Shown here: piece after piece, positions 5,270 through 23,176 of the stretch | Layout: every line of letters starts with the position of its first letter | Position numbering within the stretch: position 1 is the stretch's first letter | Origin: Pseudofrankia sp. DC12 | GTDB taxonomy: Bacteria > Actinomycetota > Actinomycetes > Frankiales > Frankiaceae | Assembly: GCF_000966285.1 (NCBI RefSeq) | Contig: NZ_KQ031391.1 | Location: 5,084,430 to 5,148,429, forward strand | DNA: 64,000 nucleotides | Direction: 5' to 3' | The notes under the pieces: model-generated | What the model was told of the DNA's origin: nothing | Database searches by the model: none | The model's input: only the letters and a program-made list of their open reading frames with translations | Made by a program: the position numbers and the translations under genes

Positions 5270-8200
5270 GTGGAAGACAGTACCGCGTTCGTCGGCACCG
5301 GCCAGGCGGCCCAGGTGCCGAGCGAGAGCGCGCCGCGGGACCGGATCATCGCCGTGAGCCCGTTCGGCCGGCCGGACGCGAGGCTCGTCGCGGCAGCGTG
5401 CGCGGCCGGCGCGATGGGCGTGCTGGACCTCGGCCTCGACCCCGCCGAGGCCGCCGACGCGCTGCCGCTGACAGCACGGCTGAGCGCCTGCGCGTTCGGC
5501 GTGCGGATCACCGATCCGGGTGTCGTCGATCCCCAGGTGACCGCGCGGTGCCGCGAACGGATCGACACGGTCGTCCTTCCGGCCGCGCTGTTCGCCGACG
5601 CCTCGGCCGGGAGCGCGCTCGAGGTGCTGCTCACGACGTTGCACGGTGCCCGCGTCCTCGCCGAGGTGACGAGCGTGGCCGAGGCGGAGGCGGCCATCGT
5701 GGCCGGAGCGGACGGCGTGCTCGTACGCGGGAACGAGGGCGGCGGGCGGGTGAGCGAGCTCAGCTCGTTCGTCCTGCTGCAGCAGGTGCTGGGCGCGCCC
5801 GGCTGGCGAGGCGCTGACGGACAGGTCCGTCCCGTCTGGTGCTGGGGCGGGATAGGCGTACGTACGGCGGTGGCCGCCGTCGTCGGCGGAGCGGCCGGGG
5901 TGGTCCTGGACACCCAGCTTGGGCTCCTGCGTGAGGCGACTGCTCTCGGGCCGCTCCCCGGCGCGCTGCGCCGGCTCGACGGCACCGAGACGGTGGTGGC
6001 GGCCGGGTATCGGGTCTACCAGCCGCCGGCCGGCAGGCGGGCCGACGGCGACGCCGAGGACTGGCCGCCGGACACAGTCCGCGCGAGAGCCGGCCACGAC
6101 GGTCACGACCGCCAGCTCCTGCCCGTGGGCCAGGACGCCTTCCTGGCCCGGGAGTTCGCCTCCCGGTACGGCACCGTCGCCCGCGCGCTGCGCGCGATCC
6201 GCGGCGCTCTCGACGCGTCGGCCCAGCCGGAGTCGGTCACGGCCGCGGACACCATGCTCTCGGCGCGTTCGCCGCTGTGCGCCGCCTGGGGGACGGCCCG
6301 GCCTGTCGCGCAGGGGCCGATGACCCGGGTGAGCGACCGGCCCGCCTTCGCCCGCCGTGTCGCCGAGGACGGGGCGCTGCCGTTCCTCGCGCTCGCGCTG
6401 GCGGACCGGGAGCAGTCGCGCCGGCTGCTGGCCGAGACCCGGGACCTGCTCGGCGAACGCCCGTGGGGAGTCGGCCTGCTCGGGTTCGCTCCCGAGGACC
6501 TGCGCGCCGCCCAGCTGGACGTGGTGCGTGAGGTCCGGCCGTCCCGGGTCATCATCGCCGGCGGCCGGCCCTCGCAGGCGGCCGAGCTGGACGCCGACGG
6601 CATCCCGACCCTGCTGCACGTCCCGTCGCCGGCCCTGCTCCGGCAGTACCTGGACGCGGGCTGTCGGCGCTTCGTTTTCGAGGGCTCCGAGTGCGGTGGC
6701 CACGTCGGCCCCCGCGCGAGCTTCCCGTTGTGGGAGGCGCAGATCGCGGTGCTGCTCGAACACCTCGACGCCGTAAGTTCCGCGCCGCCGGCCGCGCCGT
6801 CAGGCTCGGCGCGGGGAACCGAGCCGAGCGCGGGCGTCGAGGTGCTGTTCGCCGGCGGCGTGCACGACGCCCGTTCGGCGGCGATGGTGGCGGCGATGGC
6901 GAGCCCGCTGGCCGCACGGGGCGCCGGCGTCGGCCTGCTGATGGGGACCGCCTACCTCTTCACCGAGGAGGCCGTGAAACTCGGCGCGATCCAGGACGAG
7001 TTCCAGCGGCAGGCGCTGGGCGCCACCGGCACGGCACTGCTGCGGACCGGCCCCGGCCATGTCACCCGCTGCGTCACGAGCCCGTTCGTCGACCGGTTCC
7101 ACGCGGCGCGCGACGACCTGCGCGCCCAGGGCGTGCCCGACCGGCAGGTCTGGGAGCGCCTGGAACAGCTCAACATCGGCCGGCTGCGAGTCGCCAGCAA
7201 AGGAGTGGAGCGGCGCGGTGAGGCGTTGCTCCCCGTCGACCGTGAGCGGCAGCGCGACGAGGGCCTGTTCATGGCCGGGCAGGTCGCCGTGCTGCGGTCC
7301 GCGACGACGACGCTGCGGGAGCTGCACGACAGCGTGACCGAAGGTGCGCGCCGGTTCCTGCGCGAACAGTCCGGCGCTTCCCGGCAGACCCGTGACCCCG
7401 CGGGCGCGCCGGTGAGAGCCGAGGCCGCGCCGCTGGACGTGGCCGTCATCGGCATGGCCTGTGTGCTGCCCGGCGCGCCCGACCTGGCGGCCTTCTGGTC
7501 CAACGTGGTTTCCGGCAAGGACGCGATCTCGCTGGTGCCCGCGGACCGGTGGGACCCCGAGATCTACTTCGAGGCCGACGGCGGCGCCGGTCCGAGCGGT
7601 GACCGGACCCCTTCGAAGTGGGGCGGATTCCTGCCCAGGATCTCCTTCGACCCGCTTCGCTATGGCATTCCGCCGGCGGCGCTGGCGAGCATCGAGCCGG
7701 TCCAGGCCCTCGCGCTCGAGACGGCGCGCCGGGCCCTGGAGGATGCCCGGCTCGACTCCGGCGACGTCGACCACGGGCGGACCGGCGTCGTCTTCGGCAC
7801 CGAGACGAACAGCGACCTGTCGGCCGCCCTCACGTTGCGGGCCGTGCTGCCGTCGTACTACGGCGAGGTGCCGCCGGAGCTGGACGGCGTGCTTCCCCGT
7901 GTCACGCCGGAGACCTTCACCGGAATCCTCAGCAACATCATCGCCAGCCGTGTCTCCAACCGGCTCGACCTGGGCGGTCCCGCCTACGTCGTGGACGCCG
8001 CGTGCGCGTCGTCGCTCACCGCCCTGGACGCGGCCTGCAAGGAACTGCGGTCCGGCGGCGCCGACCTCATGATCTGCGGCGGCGCCGACCTGCACAACGG
8101 CGTCTTCGACTACCTGATGTTCTCCTCGGTTGGTGCCCTCTCGCCAACGGGCCGAGCCCGGCCTTTCGCCGCGGGAGCGGACGGCACGACCCTCGGCGAA

Positions 8201-11200
8201 GGTGTCGCCTGCGTCGTCCTGAAACGGCTCGCCGACGCCGAACGAGACGGCGACCGTGTCTATGCGGTGGTCAAGGCTCTTGGCTCGGCGAGCGACGGAC
8301 GTTCCCTCGGGCTGACGGCACCCCGGCCGGAGGGCCAGCAGCGCGCGCTCGAGCGCGCCTACCGCGCGGCCGGTGTCTCGGCCGCCGACGTCGGGCTTGT
8401 CGAGGCGCATGGCACCGGGACCGTCGTCGGCGACCGCACCGAGCTCGAGACCCTCACCAAGGTGTTCAGCGCGGCGGGCGCGGCGCCGGGCAGCTGCGCG
8501 CTGGGGTCCGTCAAATCCCAGATCGGCCACACGAAGACGGCGTCCGGCCTGGCTGCCCTCGTCAAGACCTCGCTGGCGCTGCATCACGGAGTCCTGCCGC
8601 CGACGCTGCACGTCGACGAGCCCAATCCGGCCTGGGAGGAGGGCGTCAGCCCCTTCGTCCTTGCGGGGACCGCGCGGCCGTGGTCCCGGTCCGCGGCCGA
8701 ACGGGTGGCCGGCGTGAGCGCCTTCGGCTTCGGTGGGGTGAACTACCACGCCGTCCTGACCGGGCACCCCAGATCGGTGGACGCCCGGCATGCCCTCGAT
8801 CAGTGGCCCGCCGAGCTGCTGGTCTTCCGAGGCGCCGACCGCGCGGCCGCACTCGATCCCGTCAACGAGATGCGCGAGCTGCTGAGAGCGAACGACGCGG
8901 CGGGCCGGCCATGGCCGCTGCGCGACTTCGCCGCCACCGCGGCGCGCCAGGCCCAGACGCGGCGAGGCGACGTCCAGATCGCCGTCGTCGCGCGTGGCCT
9001 CGACGACCTCGCGCGCCTCCTGGAACGGGCGGCCCTGGGGGAGCCTGACCCAGGCGCGGGGCTGTTCCTGGCCCGCGACCGGCCGTGGTCAGACGGCCTT
9101 GGGCAGGGGGCAGGCGGCAAACTGGCGTTGCTCTTCCCCGGCCAGGGCAGCCAGCACCCGGGCATGCTGGCCGAGCTGTTTGTCGCGTTCCCCGAGCTGC
9201 GCGACTATCTGCGGCTCGGGGACGCCTGGCGGGACGCCATCTTCCCCGCGCCGGCGCCCGGCGGTACGGGCGCCGGCGCCGAGAGGGCGGCACGGCGCCT
9301 GCGGGATACCCGGGTCGCGCAGCCGGCGCTCGGGATCGCCGGCCTCGGGATGCACCACCTGCTGTCCCGCCTGGGACTGGCGCCCGACATGACCGCCGGC
9401 CACAGCTACGGGGAGCTGGTCGCGCTGTGCGCCGCCCGCGCGTACGACGCCGAGACCCTGCTTGCGCTGTCCGCCGCCCGCGGCGAGGCGATCGCCGCGG
9501 CCCTGGCCGGCCAGGGCGGCGCCGAGCAGACGGACCAGGGCGCCATGGCGGCCGTCCGGGCGCCCGTCTCGGCCGTGACCTCGGTGCTGGCTTCCGCCTC
9601 CCTCGCCGGGCAGGTGGTCGTCGCGAACCACAACGCCCCGGACCAGGTCGTGATCTCCGGTCCTACGGCGGCGGTCGAGGCGGCCATCGGGCTACTGCGG
9701 GCCGCTGGGCACAACGCGCTGCGGCTGCCCGTCGCCGGTGCCTTCCACAGCCCCCTGGTCGCCGGCGCTGCCGACCTGTTCGCCCGCGCACTCGCCGAGG
9801 CCCGCCTGGCGGATCCCAGGCTGCCGGTCTGGGCGAACCGCGGCGCCAGCCGCTACCCGGCGACGGCCGGCGGCGCCGCCGGCGACGCCGTCCGGGCCGA
9901 GCTCACGGCGCAGATAGCGGCGCCCGTGCGGTTCGCCGACCAGATCGAGGCGATGTACGGCGACGGGGCCCGCGTGTTCGTCGAGGCTGGCCCCAGCCGG
10001 GTGCTCACCGGTCTGGTCCGCTCGATCCTCGGCAGCCGGCCGCACCTGGCGGTCGCCTGCGACGGGCGCCGGGGCGGTCTGACCGGGTTCCTCGACGCCG
10101 TCGCCGAGCTCGCGGCCGCGGGCGTCGGGCTGCAGACCGACTGGCTGGTCAACGGCCGGCAGGCCGTGGACCGGACCGGCTCGGCCCCGCCCGCCCCGCC
10201 CAGGTGGAGCGTCGACGGGCGCAGCATCTGCTTGGCCGACGGGCAGCCGCTGCCCGGCGGCCTGCTGCCGGCACGCAGAGTGGACCACGCTGCCTCCCCG
10301 GCCGCCGTCGCTGCCTTCGCGGGACAGCCGCCTCCCGGAGCCGCGCTGACGGCCGTTTCCGGCGACGCCGCGACGCGGGACGCGCTGGTCGGCCAGTTCC
10401 TGCGGACCTCACGGGACAACCTGGCCGCGCAGCGCGACGTACTGCTTGCCTACCTCGGCGGTCCACCGGTGCCGGTGCCGGGGGCACCGGCACTCGCGAG
10501 CGCGGTCTCCTTGGCGGCCGCGCCCACCGAGACGGCTGGCATCCCCGCCCTGACGGCCGACACCTTCGAGGCGGTTCCCGTCACGCCCGGCCATGCGCGC
10601 AAGATCCCCTCCAGGGCGGCCGAGCCCGCCGCGACCGTGCCCGGGGCGGGCGTGGACGTGACGGCGGCCGTGATCGGGCTCATCGCCGAGGACACGGGCT
10701 ACCCGACCGAGATGATCGAAATGGACCTCGACCTGGAGACCGATCTGTCGGTCAACTCGCTCAAGCGCACCGAGCTCGCTGGCCGCCTCGCCGAGCGCTT
10801 CGCCATTGCCCGCGGCGAAGCCGACCAGCTCAGCCGGCTGCGGACCGTCCGCGGGATCGCGCGCTGGCTCACCGAGCACAGCGCCATCGCGGACGCGGCG
10901 CGCCCGGGCGGCGTGCCCGGCCCGCTCGCCGAGCCGGCGGGCGCCACTGCCACTGCCACTGCCACTGCCGCGGACCGCCAGCGCGGCCGCGACCCGATGC
11001 GGCTGGTCTCGTCCTGGCAGCCCGCCCCAGCGCCCCCCGTCCCGGCCGACCTGACGGGCACGGCCTGGGTGGTCTTCGGCCGGGCACCCGACGTGCGCGC
11101 GGCCGAGGCCGTCGTGCGCCGGCTCACCGAGCTCGGCGCCGACGTACAGACCAGGACGACGGAGGACCTGGCCGACGCCGGCCCGGTGGCCGTCGACGGC

Positions 11201-12451
11201 GCGCTCTACCTGGCCGGCTGGGAAGACGACGCTGGGGAGCCGGAGCTGCCCGCAGCCTTCGGGGCCGTGCGCGCCGTCGTCGGTGAGCAGCTCCGGTGGC
11301 TGCTGGCCATCACCCCGGCCGGCGCGCCGCGCGCCGCCGGCCTGCGCGGCCTGTTCCGCACACTGCGCCGGGAGCGCCCGACGACGACCGTCAAGCTGGT
11401 GGAGGTCGCCGCGGGCGCGCGGCTGGCGCTTGCCGACATGGTCGCCGTCGAGCTGAACGAGCCTCCGGCGCGGGGCGAGGCCGTCGTCCGCCTCGGCGCG
11501 ACCCGGGAAACCGAGCAGCTGGTGGAGGCAGCCCTGGGCCCGCTCGCGACGGTCGGCGCGGGACCCGCGGATGACGGCACGGCGGAGGCCGCCGCGCTCG
11601 GCCTGGACCGCGGCTCCGTCGTCGTCCTCGTCGGCGGAGCCCGAGGCATCACCGCTGGGTTCACGGCCCTGCTCGCGGGCGCTGCCCGCTGTCACCTGGA
11701 GCTGGCCGGCCGCACCCCAGCCCCGGCCGGCGAGGAGGAGCCCCGGCTGGCGGCGGCGCTCGACCGGCCCGCCGTGCTCGAAGCCGTCCGGGAGCTCGGG
11801 CACCGGACCCCGCGGGAAGCGAGTCGCGCCGCGGGGCAGGTGCTGGCTCAGCGCGAGATCAGGGCGACCCTCGCCGGCGTCGCGGCCCGGGGCGGCCAGG
11901 CGCGCTACCAGCAGCTCGACGTGCTGGACGCGGACGCCGTCCACCAGTTCGTCAAGCACGTGTTCGCCCGGCACGGCCGGATCGACGCGGTCATCTATGC
12001 CGCTGGTGTCATCGAGGACCGCCTCGTCGTCGACAAGGAACCAGAGTCGTTCCGGCGGGTCTTCGACACGAAGGTGGCCGGGGCGCGGGCGCTGCTGGCG
12101 GCGCTCCAGGAGCTGCCGGCCCCGCCACGCACGGTCGCGTTCTTCGGCAGCACCGCCGCCGCACTCGGCAACCGCGGCCAAAGCGACTACGCGGCCGCGA
12201 ACGACGCGCTCGAGACGATCGGCTCGGCCTGGGGCCGCCGTACCGGGTCCCGCGTGCTGACCGTCCACTGGGGCCCATGGGCACCGGACGCTGACCATCC
12301 AGGGATGATCAGCGAGGACCTCGAACGGGACCTCGCCCGGCGCGGCGTGAGCCTGATCGACCCCGAGGCCGGGCACCGGAGCCTGCTGCGCGAGCTCGCC
12401 TGGGGACCACACGACATTTCCGGCGTCGTCTACACAGCCTCCCGGTGGTAG
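5270..12451 (+). CDS. Multidomain lipid/polyketide synthase 1: two NMO/ER-like domains-KS-AT-ACP-KR
   Basis: A 2393-residue synthase. Two FMN TIM-barrel domains like nitronate monooxygenase/PfaD enoyl reductase come first (about 15-270, with R-G-N-E-G-G-G-R; about 345-650, with G-S-E-C-G-G-H-V-G-P and G-T-A-Y-L-F-T-E-E). The ketosynthase (722-1165) has Cys912, His1047 and His1087. The acyltransferase (1284-1590) has G-H-S-Y-G-E with Ser1379 and His1493. One ACP follows with Ser1830 in L-S-V-N-S-L-K, where Asn replaces the usual Asp before Ser. The ketoreductase (about 2115-2390) has G-G-A-R-G-I-T, the F-F-G-S Ser and Tyr2307. GTG start with GGGAG upstream. The stop overlaps the next gene. The order recalls PUFA (Pfa) and heterocyst-glycolipid synthases, with the reductase fused at the N-terminus. 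The product is presumably a reduced long acyl chain. Confidence 0.85.
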   Translation: MEDSTAFVGTGQAAQVPSESAPRDRIIAVSPFGRPDARLVAAACAAGAMGVLDLGLDPAEAADALPLTARLSACAFGVRITDPGVVDPQVTARCRERIDTVVLPAALFADASAGSALEVLLTTLHGARVLAEVTSVAEAEAAIVAGADGVLVRGNEGGGRVSELSSFVLLQQVLGAPGWRGADGQVRPVWCWGGIGVRTAVAAVVGGAAGVVLDTQLGLLREATALGPLPGALRRLDGTETVVAAGYRVYQPPAGRRADGDAEDWPPDTVRARAGHDGHDRQLLPVGQDAFLAREFASRYGTVARALRAIRGALDASAQPESVTAADTMLSARSPLCAAWGTARPVAQGPMTRVSDRPAFARRVAEDGALPFLALALADREQSRRLLAETRDLLGERPWGVGLLGFAPEDLRAAQLDVVREVRPSRVIIAGGRPSQAAELDADGIPTLLHVPSPALLRQYLDAGCRRFVFEGSECGGHVGPRASFPLWEAQIAVLLEHLDAVSSAPPAAPSGSARGTEPSAGVEVLFAGGVHDARSAAMVAAMASPLAARGAGVGLLMGTAYLFTEEAVKLGAIQDEFQRQALGATGTALLRTGPGHVTRCVTSPFVDRFHAARDDLRAQGVPDRQVWERLEQLNIGRLRVASKGVERRGEALLPVDRERQRDEGLFMAGQVAVLRSATTTLRELHDSVTEGARRFLREQSGASRQTRDPAGAPVRAEAAPLDVAVIGMACVLPGAPDLAAFWSNVVSGKDAISLVPADRWDPEIYFEADGGAGPSGDRTPSKWGGFLPRISFDPLRYGIPPAALASIEPVQALALETARRALEDARLDSGDVDHGRTGVVFGTETNSDLSAALTLRAVLPSYYGEVPPELDGVLPRVTPETFTGILSNIIASRVSNRLDLGGPAYVVDAACASSLTALDAACKELRSGGADLMICGGADLHNGVFDYLMFSSVGALSPTGRARPFAAGADGTTLGEGVACVVLKRLADAERDGDRVYAVVKALGSASDGRSLGLTAPRPEGQQRALERAYRAAGVSAADVGLVEAHGTGTVVGDRTELETLTKVFSAAGAAPGSCALGSVKSQIGHTKTASGLAALVKTSLALHHGVLPPTLHVDEPNPAWEEGVSPFVLAGTARPWSRSAAERVAGVSAFGFGGVNYHAVLTGHPRSVDARHALDQWPAELLVFRGADRAAALDPVNEMRELLRANDAAGRPWPLRDFAATAARQAQTRRGDVQIAVVARGLDDLARLLERAALGEPDPGAGLFLARDRPWSDGLGQGAGGKLALLFPGQGSQHPGMLAELFVAFPELRDYLRLGDAWRDAIFPAPAPGGTGAGAERAARRLRDTRVAQPALGIAGLGMHHLLSRLGLAPDMTAGHSYGELVALCAARAYDAETLLALSAARGEAIAAALAGQGGAEQTDQGAMAAVRAPVSAVTSVLASASLAGQVVVANHNAPDQVVISGPTAAVEAAIGLLRAAGHNALRLPVAGAFHSPLVAGAADLFARALAEARLADPRLPVWANRGASRYPATAGGAAGDAVRAELTAQIAAPVRFADQIEAMYGDGARVFVEAGPSRVLTGLVRSILGSRPHLAVACDGRRGGLTGFLDAVAELAAAGVGLQTDWLVNGRQAVDRTGSAPPAPPRWSVDGRSICLADGQPLPGGLLPARRVDHAASPAAVAAFAGQPPPGAALTAVSGDAATRDALVGQFLRTSRDNLAAQRDVLLAYLGGPPVPVPGAPALASAVSLAAAPTETAGIPALTADTFEAVPVTPGHARKIPSRAAEPAATVPGAGVDVTAAVIGLIAEDTGYPTEMIEMDLDLETDLSVNSLKRTELAGRLAERFAIARGEADQLSRLRTVRGIARWLTEHSAIADAARPGGVPGPLAEPAGATATATATAADRQRGRDPMRLVSSWQPAPAPPVPADLTGTAWVVFGRAPDVRAAEAVVRRLTELGADVQTRTTEDLADAGPVAVDGALYLAGWEDDAGEPELPAAFGAVRAVVGEQLRWLLAITPAGAPRAAGLRGLFRTLRRERPTTTVKLVEVAAGARLALADMVAVELNEPPARGEAVVRLGATRETEQLVEAALGPLATVGAGPADDGTAEAAALGLDRGSVVVLVGGARGITAGFTALLAGAARCHLELAGRTPAPAGEEEPRLAAALDRPAVLEAVRELGHRTPREASRAAGQVLAQREIRATLAGVAARGGQARYQQLDVLDADAVHQFVKHVFARHGRIDAVIYAAGVIEDRLVVDKEPESFRRVFDTKVAGARALLAALQELPAPPRTVAFFGSTAAALGNRGQSDYAAANDALETIGSAWGRRTGSRVLTVHWGPWAPDADHPGMISEDLERDLARRGVSLIDPEAGHRSLLRELAWGPHDISGVVYTASRW
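10943..10969 (+). repeat. Hexanucleotide repeat GCCACT x4 in the ACP-KR linker
   Basis: Four perfect copies of GCCACT (plus a trailing GCC) inside synthase 1, encoding an Ala-Thr run between the ACP and the ketoreductase. The unit is a multiple of three, so copy-number slippage would change linker length without a frameshift. Confidence 0.8.
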
Positions 12452-15400
12452 GGGTGCCTACCGGTCCGACGCGTTCGGCCTGGTCGTCCGCGCCAGCGCC
12501 TGCGCCCGGCTGGCGCCAGCCGCCGGTCGCCATCGTCGGCATGGCCGTGCTGCTGCCCGGTGCCCCTGATCTGGACACCTACTGGCGGAACCTGATCGGG
12601 GGGGTCGACGCGATCACCGAGGTCCCGCCCGGTCGCTGGGACCCGGCGTTCTACGACCCCGCCAGCGCGGCCGGGCCGGCCCGGGCCGACCAGATCTACT
12701 GCCGGCGCGGCGGCTTCGTGGACGACCTGGCCTACGCCGACCCGCTCCGGTTCGGCATCCCGCCGCGCGACCTGGCCAGCATCGAGCCCGACCAGCTCAT
12801 CGCGCTGCAGGTCGCGTCGGCGGCGATCGAGGACGCCGGCGGCGCCGACCGCCTGGGCGATCCCGGCAAGGGCGGCGTTGTCCTCGGCCGCGGCGGGTAC
12901 ATCGGCGCCGGCATGGCCCGCCTCGACCAGCGCCTGCGCACGGCGCGCCAGCTCGTCGACACGCTGGGAACCCTGCTGCCGACGCTCGGCCAGGAGGATC
13001 TCGACCAGATCCGCGCCGCCTTCACCGAGCAGCTCGGACCGGAGGCGCCCGCCGCGGCGATGGGCGTGGTGCCGAACCTGGTGGCGTCCCGGATCGCGGC
13101 CAGGCTCGGCTTCGGCGGGCCCGCGTTCACCGTCGACGCCGCCTGCGCGTCCTCACTGGTCGCGGTGGACAGCGCCGTGGCCGAGCTGGCCTCGGGCCGC
13201 TGTGACACGGTGCTCGCCGGCGGGGTCCACCACTGTCACGACATCACCCTGTGGAGCGTGTTCTCCCAGCTCCGCGCCCTGTCGAGGACACAGCGCATCA
13301 GGCCGTTCGACCGGCGCGCCGACGGCATCCTGATCGGCGAGGGCACGGGAGTCGTCGTTCTCCGGCGGCTGGCGGACGCCTACCGCGATGGCAACCGGGT
13401 CTACGCGGTGATCCGCGGGGCCGGAGTGTCCAGCGACGGCCGCGGCGGCAGTCTGGTCCATCCGGATCCGGCCGGCCAGGCAGTGGCCATCGAACGGGCG
13501 TGGCGCTCGGCCGGCCTCGACCCCCGCGAACCCGGCTCGGTCGGCATGATCGAGGCGCACGGCACCGGCACGCCGGCCGGTGACGAGGCCGAGCTGACGA
13601 CGCTGGCCCAGGTCTTCGGGAGCGGCGCCGGGAGCGGCGCCGGCCCATCCTCGGGGGACACCCGGGCCGCCGCGCTCGGCTCGGTCAAGGCGATGATCGG
13701 GCACACGATGGCCGCCGCCGGCGTCGCCGGACTGGTGAAGGCGGCTCTGGCGCTGCACCACAAGGTCCTGCTACCGGCGGTGAACTGCGACGAGCCTCAT
13801 CCGGCGATCGCCGCGACCCGGTTCCGCCCGCTGCCCGCCCCGGTCCCCTGGGAGGCGAGCGGGCCTCGCCGCGCGGGCGTCAACGCCTTCGGGTTCGGCG
13901 GCACGAACGCGCACATCCTGCTCGAGGAGGCCGCGGCCACCGGCTCGCCGCACGCCACGCCGCCGGTTCCCGGCGTGCCGGTGGCGGCGGCCGCGGCAGC
14001 GGTGCCCGGCGCGCCGGCGCCCGCTGAGCCGACAGTGGACCAGGCCCACGCGCCGCGGCTGACGGTGGCCGAGCCAGAGCTGGTGCTGCGGCTCGCGGCG
14101 GCGACCCCGGACGAGCTGGGCGCGCTGCTCGAGGTCGACGACGCGGCGTTGCGGACCGCCGCGGCCGGCTCGCCCGCCCCGGCCGCCGTCGGCGCGCGGC
14201 TTGGCCTGGTGAATCCGACCGGACGGCGACTCGCGGCCGCGAGGCATGCTGTCGGCGGAATCCGCCTGGGGGCGTGGCGGGCGTGGCGCGGCCGCGGTGA
14301 GGTCTGGGCCAGCGCCGAGCCGCTGCTCGCCGGGCCGGTGCCGGGCCGGATCGCCTTCGTGTTCCCCGGGCTGGAAGCGGAGTTCTCCCCCCAGCTCGAC
14401 GACGTCGGCCGGCACTTCGGTTTCTGCCTGCCCGCGAAGCTGTCGGCGGCCGACCTCGGCAGCCACGGCACCAGCGTCCTGCTGGTGAGCCGCGTGCTCG
14501 ACCGGACGCTGCGGCGGATGCGGATCGAGCCCGACGCGCTGGCCGGGCACAGCATCGGCGAGTGGAGCGCGATGTTCGCCGCGGGAATGTTCGACGAGGA
14601 CGAGGTCGACGCCAGCGTCTTCGCCGCCGACCCCTACGGCGGCGACGTACCCGACCTCGACTACGCGTCGCTGGCCTGTTCGAGCGACCAGGCCAGGCTG
14701 TTCCTCGCCGACCAGCCGGACATCGTCCTGTCGCACGACAACGCGCCGCAGAGCACGGTCGTCTGCGGACCGCCCGGCGCGATCGCGGACCTGGCCGCGC
14801 GGCTGCGCCGCGAGAACGTGGTCGTCCAGATCATGCCGTTCCGGTCCGGGTTCCACACCCCGATGCTGCGGCCACACCTGCCGGCTCTCCGGGCGCGGAC
14901 CGACCGGCTCCGGCTGCGGCGGCCCGCGCGGGTCGAGCTGTGGTCGGCGACGACGGCCTCGCGGTACCCGTCCGGTCTGGCGGCCATCCGCGAGCTGTTC
15001 GTCCGCCACCTCGTCGAGCCGGTGCTGTTCCGCCAGACCGTCGAGGCCATGTACGCGGCGGGTGTCCGGGTGTTCATCCAGGTCGGGCCCGGCCGGCTCG
15101 GCGGCCTCGTCGACGGCGTCCTCGAGGGCGCCCCGCACCTGACGATCGCGGCGAACTCCGCCCACCGGGACGGACTTGGCCAGCTGCGCCGGCTCGCGGT
15201 AGCGCTGTGGGCCGAGAACGGCGACCCCGACTTCGCGGTGCTCGACGGGCCCCGCGCCCAGCCTGCCTCTTCGGCCGCGGAGCCGGCCGGGCCGGATGGC
15301 GCGGGCACCGGGAGCCGCCCGAACCGCCTGGTCCGGCTGGACCTGAGCGCGGGCACGGTGGCCATCGACCCGGCCCGGCTGCCCCGGATCGCGCCCGCTG

Positions 15401-17304
15401 GCGTCGGTTGGGCCCGGCCTGGCCTTTCGCAGGGTGACGACGCCACCCCGGTCCCGCGGCCCTTGGCCGGGCAGCCGGCGGGCCGGGCCGCTGCGCCCGG
15501 CCACCCGCTGGCTGGACATCCGCTCGTGGCGTGGGCCGAGCGGAACCCGGTGGCCGGAGAGCTGATGGCGCTGCTGACGGAGACTGCCGACACTGCCGCG
15601 GCCGTGCTGACCCGCGCGGGCGAGGCCGACACCGCCAGGGGCCCGGTCGGCGGCCTGCGCGAGGATCCCACGGGACCAGGCTGGACGGCGACTCTGCGCG
15701 TATCGACGGCGACGATGCCGTACCTGCTCGACCACGCGCTGACGCCGCAGCCGCCTGACTGGCCGGACCTCGCGGACCGGCGCCCGGTGGTGGCCGCGAC
15801 GACCACGGTCCAGCTCATGGCGGACCTCGCGCGGGAGGCCTCGGGCCGGATCCCGGTCGGCGTCTACGACGTCCGCCTCGAGAGCTGGCTGCCGGCCGAG
15901 CCCGCGACCGACGTGGCCGTCCTGGTGCGGCCCGAGGGGCGCGACCGGTTCCGGATCACCTTCGTCGGCTTCGCCACCGCCCTCGTCCGCGTCGCCGACA
16001 GCTATCCGGCCGGCCGGCCGCCGCGGTGGCCCGTCGACCTCGACACCGAGCAGCCGCCGATCCTGACCGGCCGGGAGTTCTACCGGGAACGGTGGATGTT
16101 CCACGGGCCCGCCTTCCAGGGCGTGACCGCGTTTCTCGGGCACGGGCCGTCCCATGTCCGGGGCGTCCTGCGGACGTCCGGCGCGCCGGGAGCGCTGCTG
16201 GACGCCGCGGGCCAGCTCCTCGGCTACTGGCTGCGATCGCGGGAGAACGACCGCTTCGTGATGTTCCCGGTCCGCATCGGGATGACGGAGTTCTTCGGCC
16301 CGGAACCGCCGCCCGGGGCCGCGGTCACCTGCCACGCCTGGGTCGAGAAGTTCGACAGCGAGTGGGCTGAGGCGCACCTGCAGCTCGTCGACGGCCATCA
16401 GGTCTGGGCGGTCGTGCACGGCTGGGTGGACCGGCGGTTCGACCTGCCGGCGGAGCTCGACGAGGCGTTCCGCTGGCCGCAGCGGCACCCCTTCAGCCGG
16501 GTCGTCGCCGACGGCTGGGTCCTGGCCACCGAACGCTGGTCCGACCTGGCTGTCCGCGAGATGGTGCTCAGCCGGTACGTCGGCGCGGCCGAGCGGGCCG
16601 AGTACGAGACGACGCCGCCAGCGGCCCGCCGCGAATGGCTGCTGCGACGGATCGCGATCAAGGACGCGGTGCGTACCCAGCTGTGGGGACCGCGGTCCCC
16701 GGAGATCTTCCCGGTGCAGATCCGGGTGGCGGACCCGTTCGGGCAGTGTCACGTGAGCCCCGGTGCCGCGCCCCAGGTGGCCGTCTCCGGCGTTCGGGGA
16801 TTCGTGCTGCCGCCGGTTGCCCTCTCGGTCGCGAGCACCCCGGACGTGGCTGTGGCGTGCGCGCGCCTGGTCACCGGGCCCGGCCTGCCCCGGCCGCCGG
16901 CGCAGGTCAGCCTCGTCGTCGAGCCGGCCGGGCTCGATGCCGGCCCAGCGGGGCCGGAACCACCGGTCAGTGCCGATCCGGGCGGCCCCTGGTGGCATCG
17001 CCGCCTCGCGGCGGCGAGACAGGCGGTGGCCCGGGCGTCCGGGGCCGACGCGTCCCGGACCCGGATCGCTGGCGCGTCCCGGCTGGCTTCCGACCCGCGG
17101 GTCCTGACGGTGTCCGTGACCGTGCCCGCGGCCGGCGAGCTCGCCGTGGCGGCCCAGCACACGGTGATCTGCGCAGAGGCCGCTATCTGCCGGCCCGGCG
17201 GCGCGGGGGCCGGCGACGGCGGTCGGCGGATCGTCGCCTGGACCACGAATGAGCCCGAGATTTCCGACGAGACACCGACGACCCTGATGGGAGTTCATGG
17301 ATGA
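12445..17304 (+). CDS. Multidomain lipid/polyketide synthase 2: KS-AT-DH-PPTase-like
   Basis: A 1619-residue synthase. The ketosynthase (28-480) has Cys234, His372 and His420. The acyltransferase-like domain (635-935) has G-H-S-I-G-E with Ser703 and G-F-H-T with His804. The hot-dog dehydratase region (about 1075-1370) has L-L-D-H-A-L with His1097, though the usual G-x-x-x-x-P spacing after it is degenerate. The C-terminus has R-I-A-I-K-D-A-V-R (Lys1406-Asp1407), recalling the K-E/D-A motif of 4'-phosphopantetheinyl transferases as in the tail of enediyne PksE synthases. It has no ACP of its own; the next gene supplies one. The start at 12445 (or GTG 12454) overlaps the stop of synthase 1, and the stop overlaps the ACP start, so the genes are translationally coupled. 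Confidence 0.8.
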   Translation: MVGVPTGPTRSAWSSAPAPAPGWRQPPVAIVGMAVLLPGAPDLDTYWRNLIGGVDAITEVPPGRWDPAFYDPASAAGPARADQIYCRRGGFVDDLAYADPLRFGIPPRDLASIEPDQLIALQVASAAIEDAGGADRLGDPGKGGVVLGRGGYIGAGMARLDQRLRTARQLVDTLGTLLPTLGQEDLDQIRAAFTEQLGPEAPAAAMGVVPNLVASRIAARLGFGGPAFTVDAACASSLVAVDSAVAELASGRCDTVLAGGVHHCHDITLWSVFSQLRALSRTQRIRPFDRRADGILIGEGTGVVVLRRLADAYRDGNRVYAVIRGAGVSSDGRGGSLVHPDPAGQAVAIERAWRSAGLDPREPGSVGMIEAHGTGTPAGDEAELTTLAQVFGSGAGSGAGPSSGDTRAAALGSVKAMIGHTMAAAGVAGLVKAALALHHKVLLPAVNCDEPHPAIAATRFRPLPAPVPWEASGPRRAGVNAFGFGGTNAHILLEEAAATGSPHATPPVPGVPVAAAAAAVPGAPAPAEPTVDQAHAPRLTVAEPELVLRLAAATPDELGALLEVDDAALRTAAAGSPAPAAVGARLGLVNPTGRRLAAARHAVGGIRLGAWRAWRGRGEVWASAEPLLAGPVPGRIAFVFPGLEAEFSPQLDDVGRHFGFCLPAKLSAADLGSHGTSVLLVSRVLDRTLRRMRIEPDALAGHSIGEWSAMFAAGMFDEDEVDASVFAADPYGGDVPDLDYASLACSSDQARLFLADQPDIVLSHDNAPQSTVVCGPPGAIADLAARLRRENVVVQIMPFRSGFHTPMLRPHLPALRARTDRLRLRRPARVELWSATTASRYPSGLAAIRELFVRHLVEPVLFRQTVEAMYAAGVRVFIQVGPGRLGGLVDGVLEGAPHLTIAANSAHRDGLGQLRRLAVALWAENGDPDFAVLDGPRAQPASSAAEPAGPDGAGTGSRPNRLVRLDLSAGTVAIDPARLPRIAPAGVGWARPGLSQGDDATPVPRPLAGQPAGRAAAPGHPLAGHPLVAWAERNPVAGELMALLTETADTAAAVLTRAGEADTARGPVGGLREDPTGPGWTATLRVSTATMPYLLDHALTPQPPDWPDLADRRPVVAATTTVQLMADLAREASGRIPVGVYDVRLESWLPAEPATDVAVLVRPEGRDRFRITFVGFATALVRVADSYPAGRPPRWPVDLDTEQPPILTGREFYRERWMFHGPAFQGVTAFLGHGPSHVRGVLRTSGAPGALLDAAGQLLGYWLRSRENDRFVMFPVRIGMTEFFGPEPPPGAAVTCHAWVEKFDSEWAEAHLQLVDGHQVWAVVHGWVDRRFDLPAELDEAFRWPQRHPFSRVVADGWVLATERWSDLAVREMVLSRYVGAAERAEYETTPPAARREWLLRRIAIKDAVRTQLWGPRSPEIFPVQIRVADPFGQCHVSPGAAPQVAVSGVRGFVLPPVALSVASTPDVAVACARLVTGPGLPRPPAQVSLVVEPAGLDAGPAGPEPPVSADPGGPWWHRRLAAARQAVARASGADASRTRIAGASRLASDPRVLTVSVTVPAAGELAVAAQHTVICAEAAICRPGGAGAGDGGRRIVAWTTNEPEISDETPTTLMGVHG

Positions 17305-17609
17305 CCGCGTCCGCCAGCCAGACCAGCTCCGTCCTGGCCGAAACCAACAGCCTGATCAACGAGATCGTGCGCAAGTACGGCTCCCCGCCCGTCCAGGTGA
17401 CCATGGACACGCTGTTTCACGCTGACCTCGAGCTGGAGAGCATCGATCTGGTGACGCTCGGCGTCATGCTGGCCGGCCGGTACGGCGACCAGGTGAGCAT
17501 GGCCGAGTTCCTGGCCGAGAAGGAGCTTGGCGAAGTGATCGCGTTGCGCGTTGGCGAGCTGGTCGACTACGTCGTGTCCCGGCTGCCGCTGCCGGCCAGT
17601 GCCGACTGA
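17301..17609 (+). CDS. Free-standing acyl carrier protein
   Basis: A 102-residue acidic protein with an ACP core. The pantetheine-carrying Ser is Ser47 in D-L-E-L-E-S-I-D-L. It starts in an ATGA overlap with synthase 2, which lacks an ACP, and so probably serves that synthase or receives a starter or finished chain. Glu rather than Asp precedes the Ser-Ile-Asp, which is unusual but tolerated in discrete ACPs. Confidence 0.8.
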   Translation: MTASASQTSSVLAETNSLINEIVRKYGSPPVQVTMDTLFHADLELESIDLVTLGVMLAGRYGDQVSMAEFLAEKELGEVIALRVGELVDYVVSRLPLPASAD

Positions 17610-17614
17610 CGATC

Positions 17615-18430
17615 ATGCCGACTATCCATGTCAACGACACCGACATCCACTACCTGTACATGCGCGGCAAGGCGTCGGACGGCCCCGCTCCGATGCTCGT
17701 CTGCATCCATGGCCTCGGCACTGACAGCCTCGCCAGCTTCTACCTGACGCTCGCCGCGCCGCTGTCCGCGGCCGGCGTCGACATGCTGTTCTACGACCTG
17801 CGCGGGCACGGCAACAGCTCACGGCCTACCAGCGGGTACCGGGTGGCGGACTTCGTCGCGGACCTCGGCGGCCTGCTGACCGCGCTCGGCATCGCGCGAC
17901 CGGTCCATCTGGTCGGCAACAGCTTCGGCGGCACCGTCGCCTTCGCTTTCGCCGCCGAGCATCCGGAGAAGGCGGCCAGCCTTGTGGTGATCGAGTCGGA
18001 GCCGCCGACCGAACAATGGGCGCAGCGGGTGGGGGAGCTGCTGAGGAACACCCAACAGGAGCTGTCCCGCGAGGAGACGTTCCAGCAGATCGCGGTGTTG
18101 TTCGGCGACCACCACGCCAGGCTGTCGCGGCAGGCCTACCGGCGGCTGGCGGAGACCTCGATGGCGGAGGAGATCCCGAGCGGGCCGCTGCTGGATCTCG
18201 TGGACCTGAGCCGGATCACGATGCCTGTTCTGAGCGTCGTGGGCAGCGACGGCTTCCAGGCCGAGGACCCATATCTGCTCGAGGGCGTGCTGCCCGACTG
18301 CCGGACCGTCGTGATCCAGGACCAGGACCATTCCGTCCTCGTCGAGGCCCACCGCCAGGTACGCGACCTGCTGCTCGACTGGATCTTCCGAAAGCCCGTT
18401 GCCACGGCGGCATCGCGGGACCTTCGATGA
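17615..18430 (+). CDS. Alpha/beta hydrolase, possible chain-release thioesterase
   Basis: A 271-residue alpha/beta hydrolase with oxyanion H-G-L-G near residue 32, nucleophile elbow G-N-S-F-G-G (Ser103), a late acidic residue in V-G-S-D-G and the catalytic His in Q-D-Q-D-H-S near 247. It has no signal peptide. It lies 5 bases after the ACP and overlaps the glycosyltransferase by ATGA. Its place between carrier protein and glycosyltransferase suggests release or editing of the acyl chain. This is inference; a C-C or ester hydrolase acting on the product is the alternative. Confidence 0.75.
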   Translation: MPTIHVNDTDIHYLYMRGKASDGPAPMLVCIHGLGTDSLASFYLTLAAPLSAAGVDMLFYDLRGHGNSSRPTSGYRVADFVADLGGLLTALGIARPVHLVGNSFGGTVAFAFAAEHPEKAASLVVIESEPPTEQWAQRVGELLRNTQQELSREETFQQIAVLFGDHHARLSRQAYRRLAETSMAEEIPSGPLLDLVDLSRITMPVLSVVGSDGFQAEDPYLLEGVLPDCRTVVIQDQDHSVLVEAHRQVRDLLLDWIFRKPVATAASRDLR

Positions 18431-19635
18431 CCACATTCCTGTTCGTGGTGCCGCCACTGACTGGACATATCGCGCCGTTGGCCGCGGTCGCCGAACGGCT
18501 GGGGGAGCTCGGCCACCGGGTCGCCTGGTCCGGCGAGCCCGCCCTGATCGGGAAGCTGGCCGGCGAGGACGCGCAGGTGTACCCCTGCTCGTCCGGCCCG
18601 GCCGACCTCCCCGAGCGCGGCGCGGGGCTGCGCGGCTACGCCGCCGTCCGGTTCCTCTGGGAGGAGTTCCTCATCCCGCTCGCCGACGCCACCCACGAGG
18701 CGGTCGGAGACGCGGCCCAGCAGACCGGCGCCGACCTGGTCGTCGCCGACATGCAGGCGCTGGCCGGCCCCGTCGCGGCGGCACGCCTCGGCCTGCCATG
18801 GGTCACGTCCGCCACGACGTCAGGATCGCTGCGCGACCCGTTCGCCGCGACACCCAAGGTCCGGCGGTGGCTCGACACGCTGCTCGCGGACCTGATCGGG
18901 CGCCTGTGCCCGGACGCCGTCCCCCCGCTGACGCCGGCGACGCTGGACCGTTCCCCGCACCTGGTCCTCGCCTTCACCACCGAGGCGCTCGCCGGCCCGG
19001 CGGACCCGGCGGGGCCGCCCACCTTGTGGGCGGGACCCGCGCTGCGTCAGCCCGACGCCGCGCGCGCCTCGTTCGCAGCCGACCTGGGCGAGCTGTTCCC
19101 GCCGGCGTGGCGCGACCCGTCGCGGCCGCTGGTGGTCGTTAGCCTCGGCACCGTCAACAACGAGGCTGGCGCCGATTTCCTGCGTACCTGCTGCGAGGCA
19201 CTGCAGCGGCTCGGCGCGTCCGTCCAGGGCTTCGTGGCCGACCCGCTGGGGGCGCTCGGGCCGGTGCCCGGGAACGTTCTCACCAGGCCGTACCTGCCGA
19301 TGCTCCGGCTGCTGCCGCACGCCGCCGCCGTTGTCTGCCACGCAGGCCACAACACGGTGTGCGAGGCACTCGCGCACGATCTCCCGCTGGTCGTCGCACC
19401 GATCCGGGACGACCAGCCGGTGGTCGCCCAGCAGGTCGTCGATGCCGGAGCGGGCGTGCGGCTCAGCTTCGGCCGGGCCACCCCCGGCCTGGTGACTGCC
19501 GCGGTCACCGACGTGATCGCCGACCCCCGGTACAGCCAGGCCGCGCGTCGGGTCGGCTCCTCGTTCCGGGCCGCCGGGGGTGCCACCGCCGCGGCCGCCG
19601 CCTTGGTGACGCTGGCCGAGGAGCAGGGGAAGTGA
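18427..19635 (+). CDS. UGT-type (GT1) glycosyltransferase
   Basis: 402 residues, GT-B fold. The N-terminal acceptor half starts with a P-P-L-T-G-H-I-x-P-L motif. The C-terminal half has the nucleotide-sugar signature C-H-A-G-H-N-T-V-C-E-A-L followed by P-L-V-V-A-P-I-x-x-D-Q. This is the MGT/antibiotic-macrolide glycosyltransferase group, which transfers a sugar from an NDP-sugar to a hydroxyl. A longer upstream frame exists but the ATG at 18427 overlaps the hydrolase stop (ATGA) and begins exactly at the family N-terminus. No sugar-biosynthesis genes are nearby, so a common NDP-sugar is likely used. Confidence 0.85.
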   Translation: MTTFLFVVPPLTGHIAPLAAVAERLGELGHRVAWSGEPALIGKLAGEDAQVYPCSSGPADLPERGAGLRGYAAVRFLWEEFLIPLADATHEAVGDAAQQTGADLVVADMQALAGPVAAARLGLPWVTSATTSGSLRDPFAATPKVRRWLDTLLADLIGRLCPDAVPPLTPATLDRSPHLVLAFTTEALAGPADPAGPPTLWAGPALRQPDAARASFAADLGELFPPAWRDPSRPLVVVSLGTVNNEAGADFLRTCCEALQRLGASVQGFVADPLGALGPVPGNVLTRPYLPMLRLLPHAAAVVCHAGHNTVCEALAHDLPLVVAPIRDDQPVVAQQVVDAGAGVRLSFGRATPGLVTAAVTDVIADPRYSQAARRVGSSFRAAGGATAAAAALVTLAEEQGK

Positions 19636-21551
19636 GCGGGGCCGGTGGCCCTGGAGCCGCCCCCTCCGGCCGGCCTGGCGGCTCCGCCGGCCTGATCCTG
19701 CGGTACACCTCCGGCCTGCGGCTGCGTCTCGTGGCCGGCGGCGCGCTGATCCTCGCCGGCACCGCGCTGTCGCTGGCCCAGCCGCTCATCGCGCAGCGAA
19801 TCCTTGATCGGCTCGTCCGGGACGAGCCGATCAACAGACTGCTGCTCGTCCTGGCCGGCGCCGTCGTGCTGGGGACCGCCCTGGCAGCCGGCGGCTACTT
19901 CATCGTCGAGTCCGTCGGCGAGTCGGTCGTGCGCTCGGTGCGCAGACACCTCGTCGCCCGCATCCTGGCCCTGAGACCGGCCGTTGCCGACGAGGTCGAG
20001 CCCGGCGACCTGCTGTCCCGGCTGGTCGCGGACACGACCCTGCTGCGGCAGGTGACCACCCAGGCGATGGTCACGTCGATCATCGCGTCGCTCGCGCTTG
20101 TCGGGTCGCTGGTGCTCATGGGTCTGATCGACTATGTGCTGCTCGCCGTGACGGTGGCCGCCGTCACGACGATGACTGTCGCGGTGCGCTGGTCCGCCGC
20201 GAGGATTGGGCGGGCCACAGGCAGGGCGCAGGAAGCTGTGGGCCACATGGCGATGCTGCTCGATCGCGACCTCGGGGCCTTCCGGACGGTGAAGGCCGCG
20301 GGCGCAGAGGAGCACGAGCTCGGTCTTCTGGCCGGCGCGGCGGACACCGCCTGGCGCCGTGGCCTGCGGGTCGCGGGATGGCAGGCGGCCAGCGGTGCGT
20401 CGGCCAGCCTCATGATGCAGACGTCGTTTCTCGCCGTGCTCGGGGTGGGGGGCGCCCGGGTCGCCTCGGGGCAGCTGCCACTCGCGGATCTGATCGCGTA
20501 CCTGCTCTACATGTTCTTCCTGACCCAGCCGGTCACGACCCTGGCCGGCGCCTGGGGCCAGTTCAAAGCCGGTAGTGCCGCCGCTGAGCGCATCCAGGCG
20601 GTGCTCGACCTCGCCGTCGAACCCATCGACGTTCCCCGGCCATGTGCCGGCCGCCGAGGCGACAGTGCGCCGAAGGCCGGGGCGCGGGGCGCCGGCGATC
20701 CGCGCACGTACCGACTGGACCGGCTGGACCGGCTGGACCGGCTGGACCGGCTGGACCGGCTGGACCGGCCGGGCGGCGCCACCGTGGCCTTCCAGCAGGT
20801 GGTGTTCGGATACCGGCCTGGCCTTCCCGCCGTCCACCGGAATGTGACCTTCACGGTCCCGCGGGGTGGCGTGACCGCGGTCGTCGGACCGTCCGGGGCT
20901 GGCAAGACCAGCCTGTTCGCGCTGCTCGAGCGCTTCTACGAGGCGTGGTCGGGGCGGGTGCTCGTCGACGGCCGCGACGTCGCTGACTGGCCGTTGGCCG
21001 AGCTGCGCCGCTCGATCGGCTACGTGGAGCAGGAGTCGGCGGTCCTCGCCGGCACGCTGCGGGAGAACCTGACCCTCGGCCTCGCCGGCGTCGGCGACGA
21101 CCAGCTGTGGGAGATCGTCGGGCTTGCGCGGCTCGGCGACGTCGTCGACGCGCTGCCCGGCGGCCTCGACGGCTGGATCGGACACCGCGGCGGCACGCTG
21201 TCCGGCGGCCAGCGGCAGCGGATCGCGATTGGCCGGGCGCTGTTGCGCCAGCCCCGGCTGCTCCTGATGGACGAGGCGACCTCGGCGCTGGACGCGGCCA
21301 ACGAGGCGGCGCTGCGCGACACCCTCGTGGTCGCTTCGAGGTCCACCACCGTGATCGTCATCGCCCACCGGCTGTCCACCGTCATTGACGCCCGCCAGAT
21401 CGTCGTCATGGAGTCTGGGCGGGTCCGCGCGGTCGGCACCCATGACGAGCTCCTGCGTGGCGACGAGCTGTACCGGGAGCTGGCAACTACGCAGTTCCTC
21501 GCTCCGGCCGGCCCCGAGACGGGGCTCCAACGCTCCGAAGCCGGCCGTTGA
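19632..21551 (+). CDS. ABC exporter (fused TMD-NBD half transporter)
   Basis: 639 residues, MsbA/LmrA type. A six-helix membrane domain spans about residues 20-320, and an ATPase domain about 385-610 has Walker A G-P-S-G-A-G-K (Lys425), signature L-S-G-G-Q near 523, Walker B L-L-L-M-D-E-A near 545 and the A-H-R switch His. GTG start in a GTGA overlap with the glycosyltransferase, last gene of the operon. It would work as a homodimer, and export of the glycosylated lipid is the natural inference. The linker between the two domains contains a six-fold Leu-Asp-Arg repeat (residues 362-379), which is not a normal family feature. Confidence 0.88.
   Translation: MSGAGGPGAAPSGRPGGSAGLILRYTSGLRLRLVAGGALILAGTALSLAQPLIAQRILDRLVRDEPINRLLLVLAGAVVLGTALAAGGYFIVESVGESVVRSVRRHLVARILALRPAVADEVEPGDLLSRLVADTTLLRQVTTQAMVTSIIASLALVGSLVLMGLIDYVLLAVTVAAVTTMTVAVRWSAARIGRATGRAQEAVGHMAMLLDRDLGAFRTVKAAGAEEHELGLLAGAADTAWRRGLRVAGWQAASGASASLMMQTSFLAVLGVGGARVASGQLPLADLIAYLLYMFFLTQPVTTLAGAWGQFKAGSAAAERIQAVLDLAVEPIDVPRPCAGRRGDSAPKAGARGAGDPRTYRLDRLDRLDRLDRLDRLDRPGGATVAFQQVVFGYRPGLPAVHRNVTFTVPRGGVTAVVGPSGAGKTSLFALLERFYEAWSGRVLVDGRDVADWPLAELRRSIGYVEQESAVLAGTLRENLTLGLAGVGDDQLWEIVGLARLGDVVDALPGGLDGWIGHRGGTLSGGQRQRIAIGRALLRQPRLLLMDEATSALDAANEAALRDTLVVASRSTTVIVIAHRLSTVIDARQIVVMESGRVRAVGTHDELLRGDELYRELATTQFLAPAGPETGLQRSEAGR
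20715..20768 (+). repeat. 9-bp minisatellite CTGGACCGG x6 inside the exporter gene
   Basis: Six perfect tandem copies, in frame, encoding Leu-Asp-Arg six times in the linker between membrane and ATPase domains. Perfect identity at third codon positions points to recent slippage expansion. Confidence 0.95.
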
Positions 21552-21904: not shown

Positions 21905-23176
21905 ATGATCCTTTGCCGCCTCCGCGCGAGGACCACGGCTGCCACGATCACGGCCGTGCTTGTCGGGCTCTGTACGTCGATGAGTGGATGCGGGCTGTTG
22001 CCGACGTCGACAGCCGGCAAAGCTGAGGACTGCCCGACGCTGGCACCGGGAGTCACTGGCAATTCCGTCAAGATCGGGCTGATCTACCCCGACACCGGGC
22101 CCGCCGAAATCGCCAAAGCCTTCAAGGCGTCCCGCAGCGGTGTCGAGGCCCGCATCGCCCTGCAGAATGCCCACGGCGGCGTCAACGGCCGTACGGTCGA
22201 TCTGGTATGGGGCGACGACCAGTCCGACCCGGGAGCCTTCTCGCTGGTCGCGCACGACCTCGTCAGCAACCAGGGGGTGTTCGGCCTCATCACCCCGTCC
22301 ATTGTCCTCGAAAAGTCAGCTGAGTGGCTCGAGAAGGAAAACGTACCGGTCACCGGAACCGCGACGAGCGCCGCGTGGAGTGATTTCCCCAACCTCTTCG
22401 ACGCCGGGAACCTGTTCAACACCGGCAAGGTCTCCGTCTTCGGCGACTTCGTCAAGGCCGAAGGCGGGACAAAGGCACTGGTCGTGGTCGACCCGAACGT
22501 CGCGGCCTCCCAGAGCCTCGCCGCGCAGTTCGTCCCCAGCCTCCAGAGCCGTGGAGTCGAGGTCGTCGGCGAGGTCACCTACACCGACGGCTTCACCAGC
22601 CCCGCCAGCGTCGCCGGCGAGCTGGAGAAATCCGGCGCTGACGCCCTTATTGGCGCAGCCCAGTCCAACCCCTTCATCGACATCTACGCCCAGGCCAAAG
22701 CCCTCGGCGCCAAACTTAATGTCGCCCTGAGCGCCACTGGCTTCAGCCCCAGCCTGCTCACCCAGCGCGGCAAGGACATGGCCGGAATGTCGATCATGTC
22801 GAGCATCGCGACCCAGGGCTCGCCGGCGCTGAGGGCCTACCAGAGCGCGATGAGCGCCTATGCGCCGGAAATTCTTGACCCAAGCGACGAGCTTTCGCTC
22901 GCGGGCTATGTCGCCGCCGACGAGATGATCGAAGGCCTGCAGCTGGCCGGAGGCTGCCCGAGCCGCGAGGCGTTCATCCAGAACCTCCGCAGGGTCACCG
23001 ACTTCACGGCCAACGGCCTGATCCCCCCGATCGACCTCACCCATCCCAAGCAGCCGACCCTCTGCGAGAACTTCGTCAAGGTCGACCAGAAGGGCCACAG
23101 CTTCGTACCGGTGCCACCGCCCGCCGCCCTCAACCAGGACGGCTACTGGTGCGGCGAGCCCCTTCAGCAGAGCTGA
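21905..23176 (+). CDS. Solute-binding lipoprotein, branched-chain-amino-acid-binding (LivJ) fold
   Basis: 423 residues. N-terminal signal with a lipobox-like M-S-G-C-G at about residue 29, then a type I periplasmic-binding fold: V-K-I-G-L-I-Y-P-D-T-G, A-R-I-A-L-Q-N-A-x-G-G-V-N-G-R and further Leu/Ile/Val-binding motifs. The protein is probably anchored outside the membrane and captures a small ligand. No permease or ATPase genes accompany it, so it is either an orphan that delivers to a distant transporter or a sensor partner for the two-component system that follows. GGAAGG lies at a good distance from the ATG. Confidence 0.8.
   Translation: MILCRLRARTTAATITAVLVGLCTSMSGCGLLPTSTAGKAEDCPTLAPGVTGNSVKIGLIYPDTGPAEIAKAFKASRSGVEARIALQNAHGGVNGRTVDLVWGDDQSDPGAFSLVAHDLVSNQGVFGLITPSIVLEKSAEWLEKENVPVTGTATSAAWSDFPNLFDAGNLFNTGKVSVFGDFVKAEGGTKALVVVDPNVAASQSLAAQFVPSLQSRGVEVVGEVTYTDGFTSPASVAGELEKSGADALIGAAQSNPFIDIYAQAKALGAKLNVALSATGFSPSLLTQRGKDMAGMSIMSSIATQGSPALRAYQSAMSAYAPEILDPSDELSLAGYVAADEMIEGLQLAGGCPSREAFIQNLRRVTDFTANGLIPPIDLTHPKQPTLCENFVKVDQKGHSFVPVPPPAALNQDGYWCGEPLQQS

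Follow-up and report, generated by a model that had tools for sequence, protein, structure and literature searches.

A 64,000-nucleotide stretch of the Pseudofrankia sp. DC12 genome (contig NZ_KQ031391.1, positions 5,084,430–5,148,429 of a 6.88 Mb single-contig genome; referred to here as the window) was found to carry a chain of six plus-strand genes (window positions 5270–21551), encoding two large synthases (A and B), a free acyl carrier protein (ACP), a hydrolase, a GT1 glycosyltransferase and an ABC exporter. The encoded machinery is of a known but chemically uncharacterised kind, represented here by a variant with a decayed built-in activating domain. We consider it probable that this operon, a diverged form of the so-called Type M secondary lipid synthases, directs the synthesis of an exported glycoside of a long, partly hydroxylated acyl chain. 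A preliminary description of this DNA had proposed that the six genes form a single chain, and all six were recovered at the place and on the strand that it had claimed.

Gene and domain organization

Adjacent genes overlap by 7 bases (A/B) or by 4 bases (B/ACP, hydrolase/glycosyltransferase and glycosyltransferase/exporter, the latter if the exporter starts at GTG 19632), with a 5-base gap between the ACP and hydrolase genes. These short overlaps and the gap agree with the preliminary description, except that six genes have five boundaries and not the six it had counted, and that the overlaps are of 7, 4, 4 and 4 bases. An Rfam scan of the window returned no match above threshold.

Synthase A (5270–12451, 2393 aa) was shown by domain searches to comprise two enoyl reductase (ER) barrels, a ketosynthase (KS), an acyltransferase (AT), an ACP and a ketoreductase (KR). 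The suggestion that A opens with two FMN enoyl-reductase-like barrels was confirmed by profile searches, which identified two TIM barrels of the FabK/nitronate monooxygenase family. The profiles of barrel 1 (residues 28–325; 5351–6244) and barrel 2 (residues 326–700; 6245–7369, also matched by PF03060) detected PDB FabK chains with E values of 2.7e-16 and 1.6e-14, respectively, and each other with an E value of 1.5e-5 over 196 columns (probability 79.5%). Barrel 2 retained its ECGGH motif in all 16 rows of alignment A1; in barrel 1, GG was followed by R, L, P or V in place of the histidine in 16/16 rows, this GGH histidine being the residue that we take to be catalytic in FabK. A KS-AT in frame with the ER was observed at 107 of 108 loci with a strong ER match, a set that contains some duplicates and is biased towards fusions by the fused queries with which it was gathered. 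The same double barrel precedes a KS in Beijerinckia indica and Methylosinus plasmid records.

The remaining domains of A are the KS (7436–8881, Cys-His-His retained), the AT (9131–10021, with GHSYGE and AFHS, presumably of the malonyl type), the ACP (10667–10870, motif DLSVNSLK, in which an Asn precedes the pantetheine Ser) and the KR (11618–12283). One to three tandem ACP motifs occur in A among relatives (L108, L109, L027 and L039). Synthase B (12445–17304, 1619 aa) consists of a KS, an AT, a dehydratase (DH) and a degenerate tail (16525–17301) resembling a phosphopantetheinyl transferase (PPTase). Active-site letters were intact in the KS, AT and KR of A and in the KS and AT of B, and residues H1097 and D1253 of B, to which we assign a role in the DH, were invariant in 13/13 rows. 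Domain searches of B returned neither an ACP nor a chain-length factor (CLF) match.

The downstream genes, as identified by domain searches, encode the free ACP (17301–17609, 102 aa), an alpha/beta hydrolase (17615–18430, 271 aa; a candidate thioesterase or acyltransferase), the MGT-like GT1 glycosyltransferase (18427–19635, 402 aa; assigned from NCBIfam models and relatives) and an ABC exporter with membrane and ATPase domains on one chain (19632–21551, 639 aa; also supported by relatives).

Relationship to known lipid synthases

In a phylogenetic comparison of KS domains (41 rows, of which seven were long-branched and four had an odd composition), the 11 A-type KSs formed a single clade (support 100/99) inside a 19-row clade (95/95), together with eight rows labelled PfaA-like, so called because the Persicobacter and S. 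globosus records contain a second protein in which two stretches resemble a KS. This 19-row clade also includes a Type P row, while the 10 B-type KSs constituted a separate clade (95/93). The preliminary description had named a position within modular polyketide synthases (PKSs) or mycolic-acid synthases as the outcome that would speak against it. Such an origin was rejected, as four modular rows and Pks13 (five such rows tried) formed a clade of their own (100/100) apart from the KS of A, which grouped with PfaA-like and phenolic-lipid synthase rows. An Azospirillum row, labelled modular beforehand, fell with the first KS of presumed KS-CLF proteins.

The same description had regarded the operon as a candidate new machine, and this was not borne out: the available part of PMC13291983 already describes a fused pfaDA and a PPTase-bearing pfaBC, which are compared there to the Renibacterium cluster, and the double barrel is also present in Beijerinckia indica ATCC 9039. 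The window operon resembles that arrangement in that a pfaDA protein with a fused ER precedes a pfaBC-like protein whose tail is homologous to PPTases (as identified by alignment to relatives), which is the Type M order. Type M was described by Shulse and Allen (2011; PMC3098273, available in part) as secondary lipid synthases with no product known, from Frankia alni ACN14a, CcI3, EAN1pec, Actinosynnema mirum, Renibacterium salmoninarum and Streptomyces avermitilis. The KS of A grouped with rows from a Renibacterium metagenome-assembled genome (MAG) and from Streptomyces, although the Type M labels of that paper are not attached to these rows.

The window copy differs from Type M in its lack of PPTase motifs, in an Asn-Ser (NS) pair in the ACP of A and in its ABC exporter. 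Moreover, the accessible text of PMC3098273 names no glycosyltransferase, hydrolase or free ACP for Type M, whereas the window operon has all three; as far as that text goes, an associated PPTase is most often present in Type M and other types, and is not stated to be required. Because PPTase motifs were absent from all eight complete tails of the window type (defined below), the operon appears to be a diverged variant of the Type M lineage and not a typical member, an assignment that is our own and is made by described architecture.

Three further systems were compared. The part of PMC3098273 at hand places Beijerinckia indica ATCC 9039 in Type P (phenolic lipids). In this strain, KS-AT-ACP-KR is likewise preceded by a fused double-barrel ER (identity of 42% in the ER part), its KS belongs to a 14-row clade (93/91) holding the A-type KSs, and a glycosyltransferase and an ABC permease gene lie downstream; in contrast, two KAS III-like proteins and a PPTase domain on a protein of its own come after this synthase, none of which occurs in the window operon, and no type III PKS partner gene, a Type P trait, was found among the six operon genes. 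The Pfa omega-3 polyunsaturated fatty acid system shares with A a KS clade of PfaA-like rows, two of which have a presumed KS-CLF second protein, and omega_3_PfaA (TIGR02813) was the top NCBIfam model for both A and B. Unlike Pfa systems, the window operon contains a single DH and has one ACP in A, B lacks a CLF match, and the PfaA cut-off is not reached. The heterocyst glycolipid system (Type F), the product of which is exported, would be analogous in that a long-chain synthase product is glycosylated and exported. It differs in having KS-CLF-AT in hglC and no dehydratase/isomerase (DH/I) domains, a distinction drawn from the description in the available part of PMC3098273.

Distribution and decay of the PPTase-like tail

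Among 35 Frankiaceae genomes from seven genera, 33 yielded an ER match. Ten of these hold the window type (near-full match, at least 63% identity), an eleventh (G010) carrying fragments at 71–73%, and all ten also hold a second type (55–59%). A recent duplication within the Frankiaceae was rejected, since the two Frankiaceae types formed separate clades in a tree of the A gene (57 of the 101 long-enough rows, out of 108), where two loci from a single Actinomycetota MAG isolate were the closest neighbours of the window type. Of the 12 PF00109 matches in the window genome, only four fall in frames as long as type I synthases (1669–2594 aa), all of them in the two operons of this kind, the others being in frames of 388–551 aa; apart from these two operons, the genome has no evident type I KS. 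Clusters of this kind are presumably those that antiSMASH labels hglE-KS. According to the available portion of PMC3848822, every Frankia strain has a conserved type I PKS, of which EuI1c and ACN14a carry a duplicate. PMC8951365, likewise seen in part, reports that two PKS proteins, which may differ from those of the present loci, are overabundant in Alnus nodules.

Beyond the family, at least 570 relatives of the double-barrel reductase region were detected in public genomes. The 80 relatives kept, among the matches listed, comprise one Eremiobacterota MAG and otherwise carry Actinomycetota names, with many Streptomyces and Micromonospora, and also Kitasatospora. Two Streptomyces plasmids carry the operon, annotated as a PKS or oxidoreductase, KS protein, ACP, hydrolase, glycosyltransferase and methyltransferase; these loci (L160 and L161) are on large linear plasmids typed as mobilizable, with transposases nearby.

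This distribution bears on the idea that the product shields nitrogenase as a lipid of the vesicle envelope in Frankia, by analogy with heterocyst glycolipids. In its favour, the accessible text of PMC3098273 states that related synthases build heterocyst glycolipid chains and that Type M is conserved in Frankia. A nitrogenase-shielding role is nevertheless highly improbable, because nifD was not found by search in the window genome or in five of the nine other near-full window-type genomes (6/10 in all), and relatives occur in many Streptomyces and Micromonospora.

The preliminary description correctly gave B a DH and a PPTase-like tail but no ACP. Alignment shows this tail to be a homologue of the PPTase tails found in relatives, but the window copy is devoid of PPTase motifs: it reads VSLVVE where relatives have GIDIE, and RQA in place of KEA. 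PF01648 exceeded its cut-off for the second-operon tail of the same genome and not for the window's own tail, which matched no PPTase among PDB sequences (best E value 0.39). Neither motif was kept in any of the eight complete window-type tails, three of which lack the second stretch (cut rows L040 and L041 and duplicates L050 and L051 are left out of the PPTase counts). Conversely, both GIDIE-like and KEA-like motifs are present in the second-operon B proteins of L025, L027, L045 and L047 and in most Streptomyces B proteins. Four of seven Frankiaceae second-type rows keep both motifs (L031, L042 and L044 do not).

Outside the Frankiaceae, the Asp of GID and the KE were kept in 38 of 45 readable rows (counted by hand from a motif table of 49 rows, four cut or frame-broken rows being set aside), with L069, L096, L111 and L115 differing at the last residue of GIDIE. 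The seven other rows, from Kutzneria (three), Crossiella, Umezawaea and Streptomyces (two), require three changes on the tree in addition to that in the Frankiaceae. In the MAG that lies closest to the window type by its A genes, the two B tails (L130 and L159) are likewise broken, by different residues. In Streptomyces rugosispiralis and S. iranensis (L061 and L081), KEA is kept with GIALE for GIDIE, which, as read from these motifs, is apparently another separate PPTase decay.

The residue preceding the pantetheine Ser of A was Asn in all 14 window-type rows (11 distinct loci and three duplicate records), while among 78 other rows with a readable ACP motif, near-duplicates included, it was Asp in 77 and Glu in one. 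The change from DS to NS is private to the Frankiaceae window type, and it is uncoupled from PPTase loss in general, because the Asp persists in the closest MAG row (L056) and in other lineages whose PPTase is broken.

The glycosyltransferase tail and the predicted product

To delineate the conserved tail of the operon, 30 of the 80 kept loci were examined for the hydrolase; after removal of G060, whose hydrolase match was weak (E value 3.1e-8), same-strand matches near the hydrolase were scored at 30 loci in 29 genomes, two of the loci lying in G038. Beside the hydrolase, the ACP was present at 30/30 loci, B at 29/30 and the glycosyltransferase at 27/30, which substantiates the proposed membership of the glycosyltransferase in the operon, the recurrence of the same gene order in other genomes indicating more than chance. 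The exporter proved to be a member in the same sense within the window type, where an ABC gene follows the glycosyltransferase at all eight loci that reach that point (L032–L035 and L037–L040). Among the 30 surveyed loci, a methyltransferase gene follows the glycosyltransferase at 19 and a same-strand ABC exporter directly follows it at three (L130, L134 and L159; six if three weak matches of 28–29% identity and 62–66 bits, located ~5 kb away, are included). A methyltransferase protein occupies the same slot in the second operon of L023, L026 and L028, and no locus has both a methyltransferase and an ABC gene in this position. In S. indicus (L144), a methyltransferase follows the glycosyltransferase, and an ABC protein (49%) lies farther down on the other strand.

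The gene chain and its conservation argue against the view that the synthases supply membranes with an unmodified fatty acid, long-chain or polyunsaturated, with the glycosyltransferase and exporter being mere neighbours. The best model is PfaA-like and KR, DH and ER are all present, as that view would require; yet 4-base overlaps bind both genes to the chain and the glycosyltransferase recurs beside the hydrolase at distant loci, so that we judge it quite improbable.

One window-type locus, L036 (G033:C60, 5954–9590), consists of an ER stump with the remaining operon missing: its 979-aa frame matches only the double-barrel ER of A (63%) and is directly followed by a solute-binding protein that is 78% identical to that of window positions 21905–23176. 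It looks like the deletion scar of a second window-type operon. Upstream of the window operon, neighbourhood comparison identified a GMC oxidoreductase gene (3178–4965, plus strand), possibly accessory and retained near the operon in some relatives, and a TetR-type regulator gene (1405–2013, plus strand), retained in L032. The GMC oxidoreductase gene adjoins the operon on the same strand in L032 and divergently in L035 and L037, and one in Streptomyces cylindrosporus (L147; 67% identical) is located 4.7 kb past the hydrolase on the other strand.

From the observed genes, domains, active-site letters, operon conservation, KS placement and motif loss, we infer a mechanism in which A and B would act together and iteratively on malonyl units, the KS condensing and the KR and DH reducing and dehydrating, to give a chain of presumably considerable length held on the ACP of A. 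Barrel 2 of A would reduce the enoyl group, with barrel 1 serving as a partner or surviving as a structural relic. Release or transfer of the chain would fall to the hydrolase and the free ACP, the glycosyltransferase would add a sugar to a hydroxyl left by a skipped dehydration, and the ABC protein would export the glycolipid. Because the B tail has lost its PPTase motifs, the ACPs would be activated in trans by another PPTase, either the tail of the second operon's B or a stand-alone Sfp-type enzyme; the window genome contains an Sfp-like PPTase frame with GIDAE and KES.

Several observations weigh against this interpretation. The best PDB match of the KS of A is a putative polyketide synthase (7zma; 475.8 bits, the next match scoring 334.3), and A and B score 816.8 and 450.6 bits, respectively, both below the curated TIGR02813 cut-off of 1010.1. 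No glycosyltransferase was seen at three Micromonospora loci, and the ACP change does not generally accompany PPTase loss. The glycosyltransferase matches the MGT, OleI and Mgt models, all below cut-off, some of which are self-resistance enzymes, and no product was found for any relative, nor tied to the operon or lineage, in the literature searched.

The glycosyltransferase matches would suit a different scenario, in which the product of the synthases is bioactive, be it a lipid or a polyketide, and the last two genes confer self-protection, the sugar masking the product inside the cell and the exporter removing it. The models concerned are for macrolide glycosyltransferases, including OleI self-immunity and macrolide-inactivating enzymes, and relatives are found in Streptomyces, Micromonospora and Kitasatospora, genera known for antibiotics. 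As a methyltransferase after the glycosyltransferase is far commoner than an exporter (19 versus 3 of 30 loci), tailoring suits the data better, and we regard self-protection as unlikely.

With respect to the glycoside reading, fattiviracin, cycloviracin and glucolypsin, actinomycete glyco-dilactones, have long hydroxy acyl chains bearing glucose (PMC4365757, available in part). The methyltransferase of many relatives could account for sugars that are O-methylated, as they are in cycloviracin. A link between the operon and such compounds is a conjecture; the literature searched, in the parts available, yielded no gene cluster for any of the three, and no description of the glycosyltransferase tail (mostly titles and open papers).

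The conserved ACP-hydrolase-glycosyltransferase tail predicts a glycosylated long-chain product for a lineage that is widespread, yet has no product in the literature searched. As a tentative proposal, Type M operons throughout the Actinomycetota may specify a single, widespread class of secreted glycolipids that has escaped chemical recognition, possibly of the fattiviracin/cycloviracin kind, in which the sixth gene would set the fate of the product (sugar methylation versus ABC export); the Frankiaceae export branch may have dropped the PPTase built into its synthase and adapted the ACP of A to a trans-acting PPTase, probably that of the sister operon or an Sfp-type enzyme. The window type would also offer a natural experiment, having lost its own activating domain while the sister operon in the same genome kept one, and having acquired a change at the ACP attachment site seen in no other examined row.

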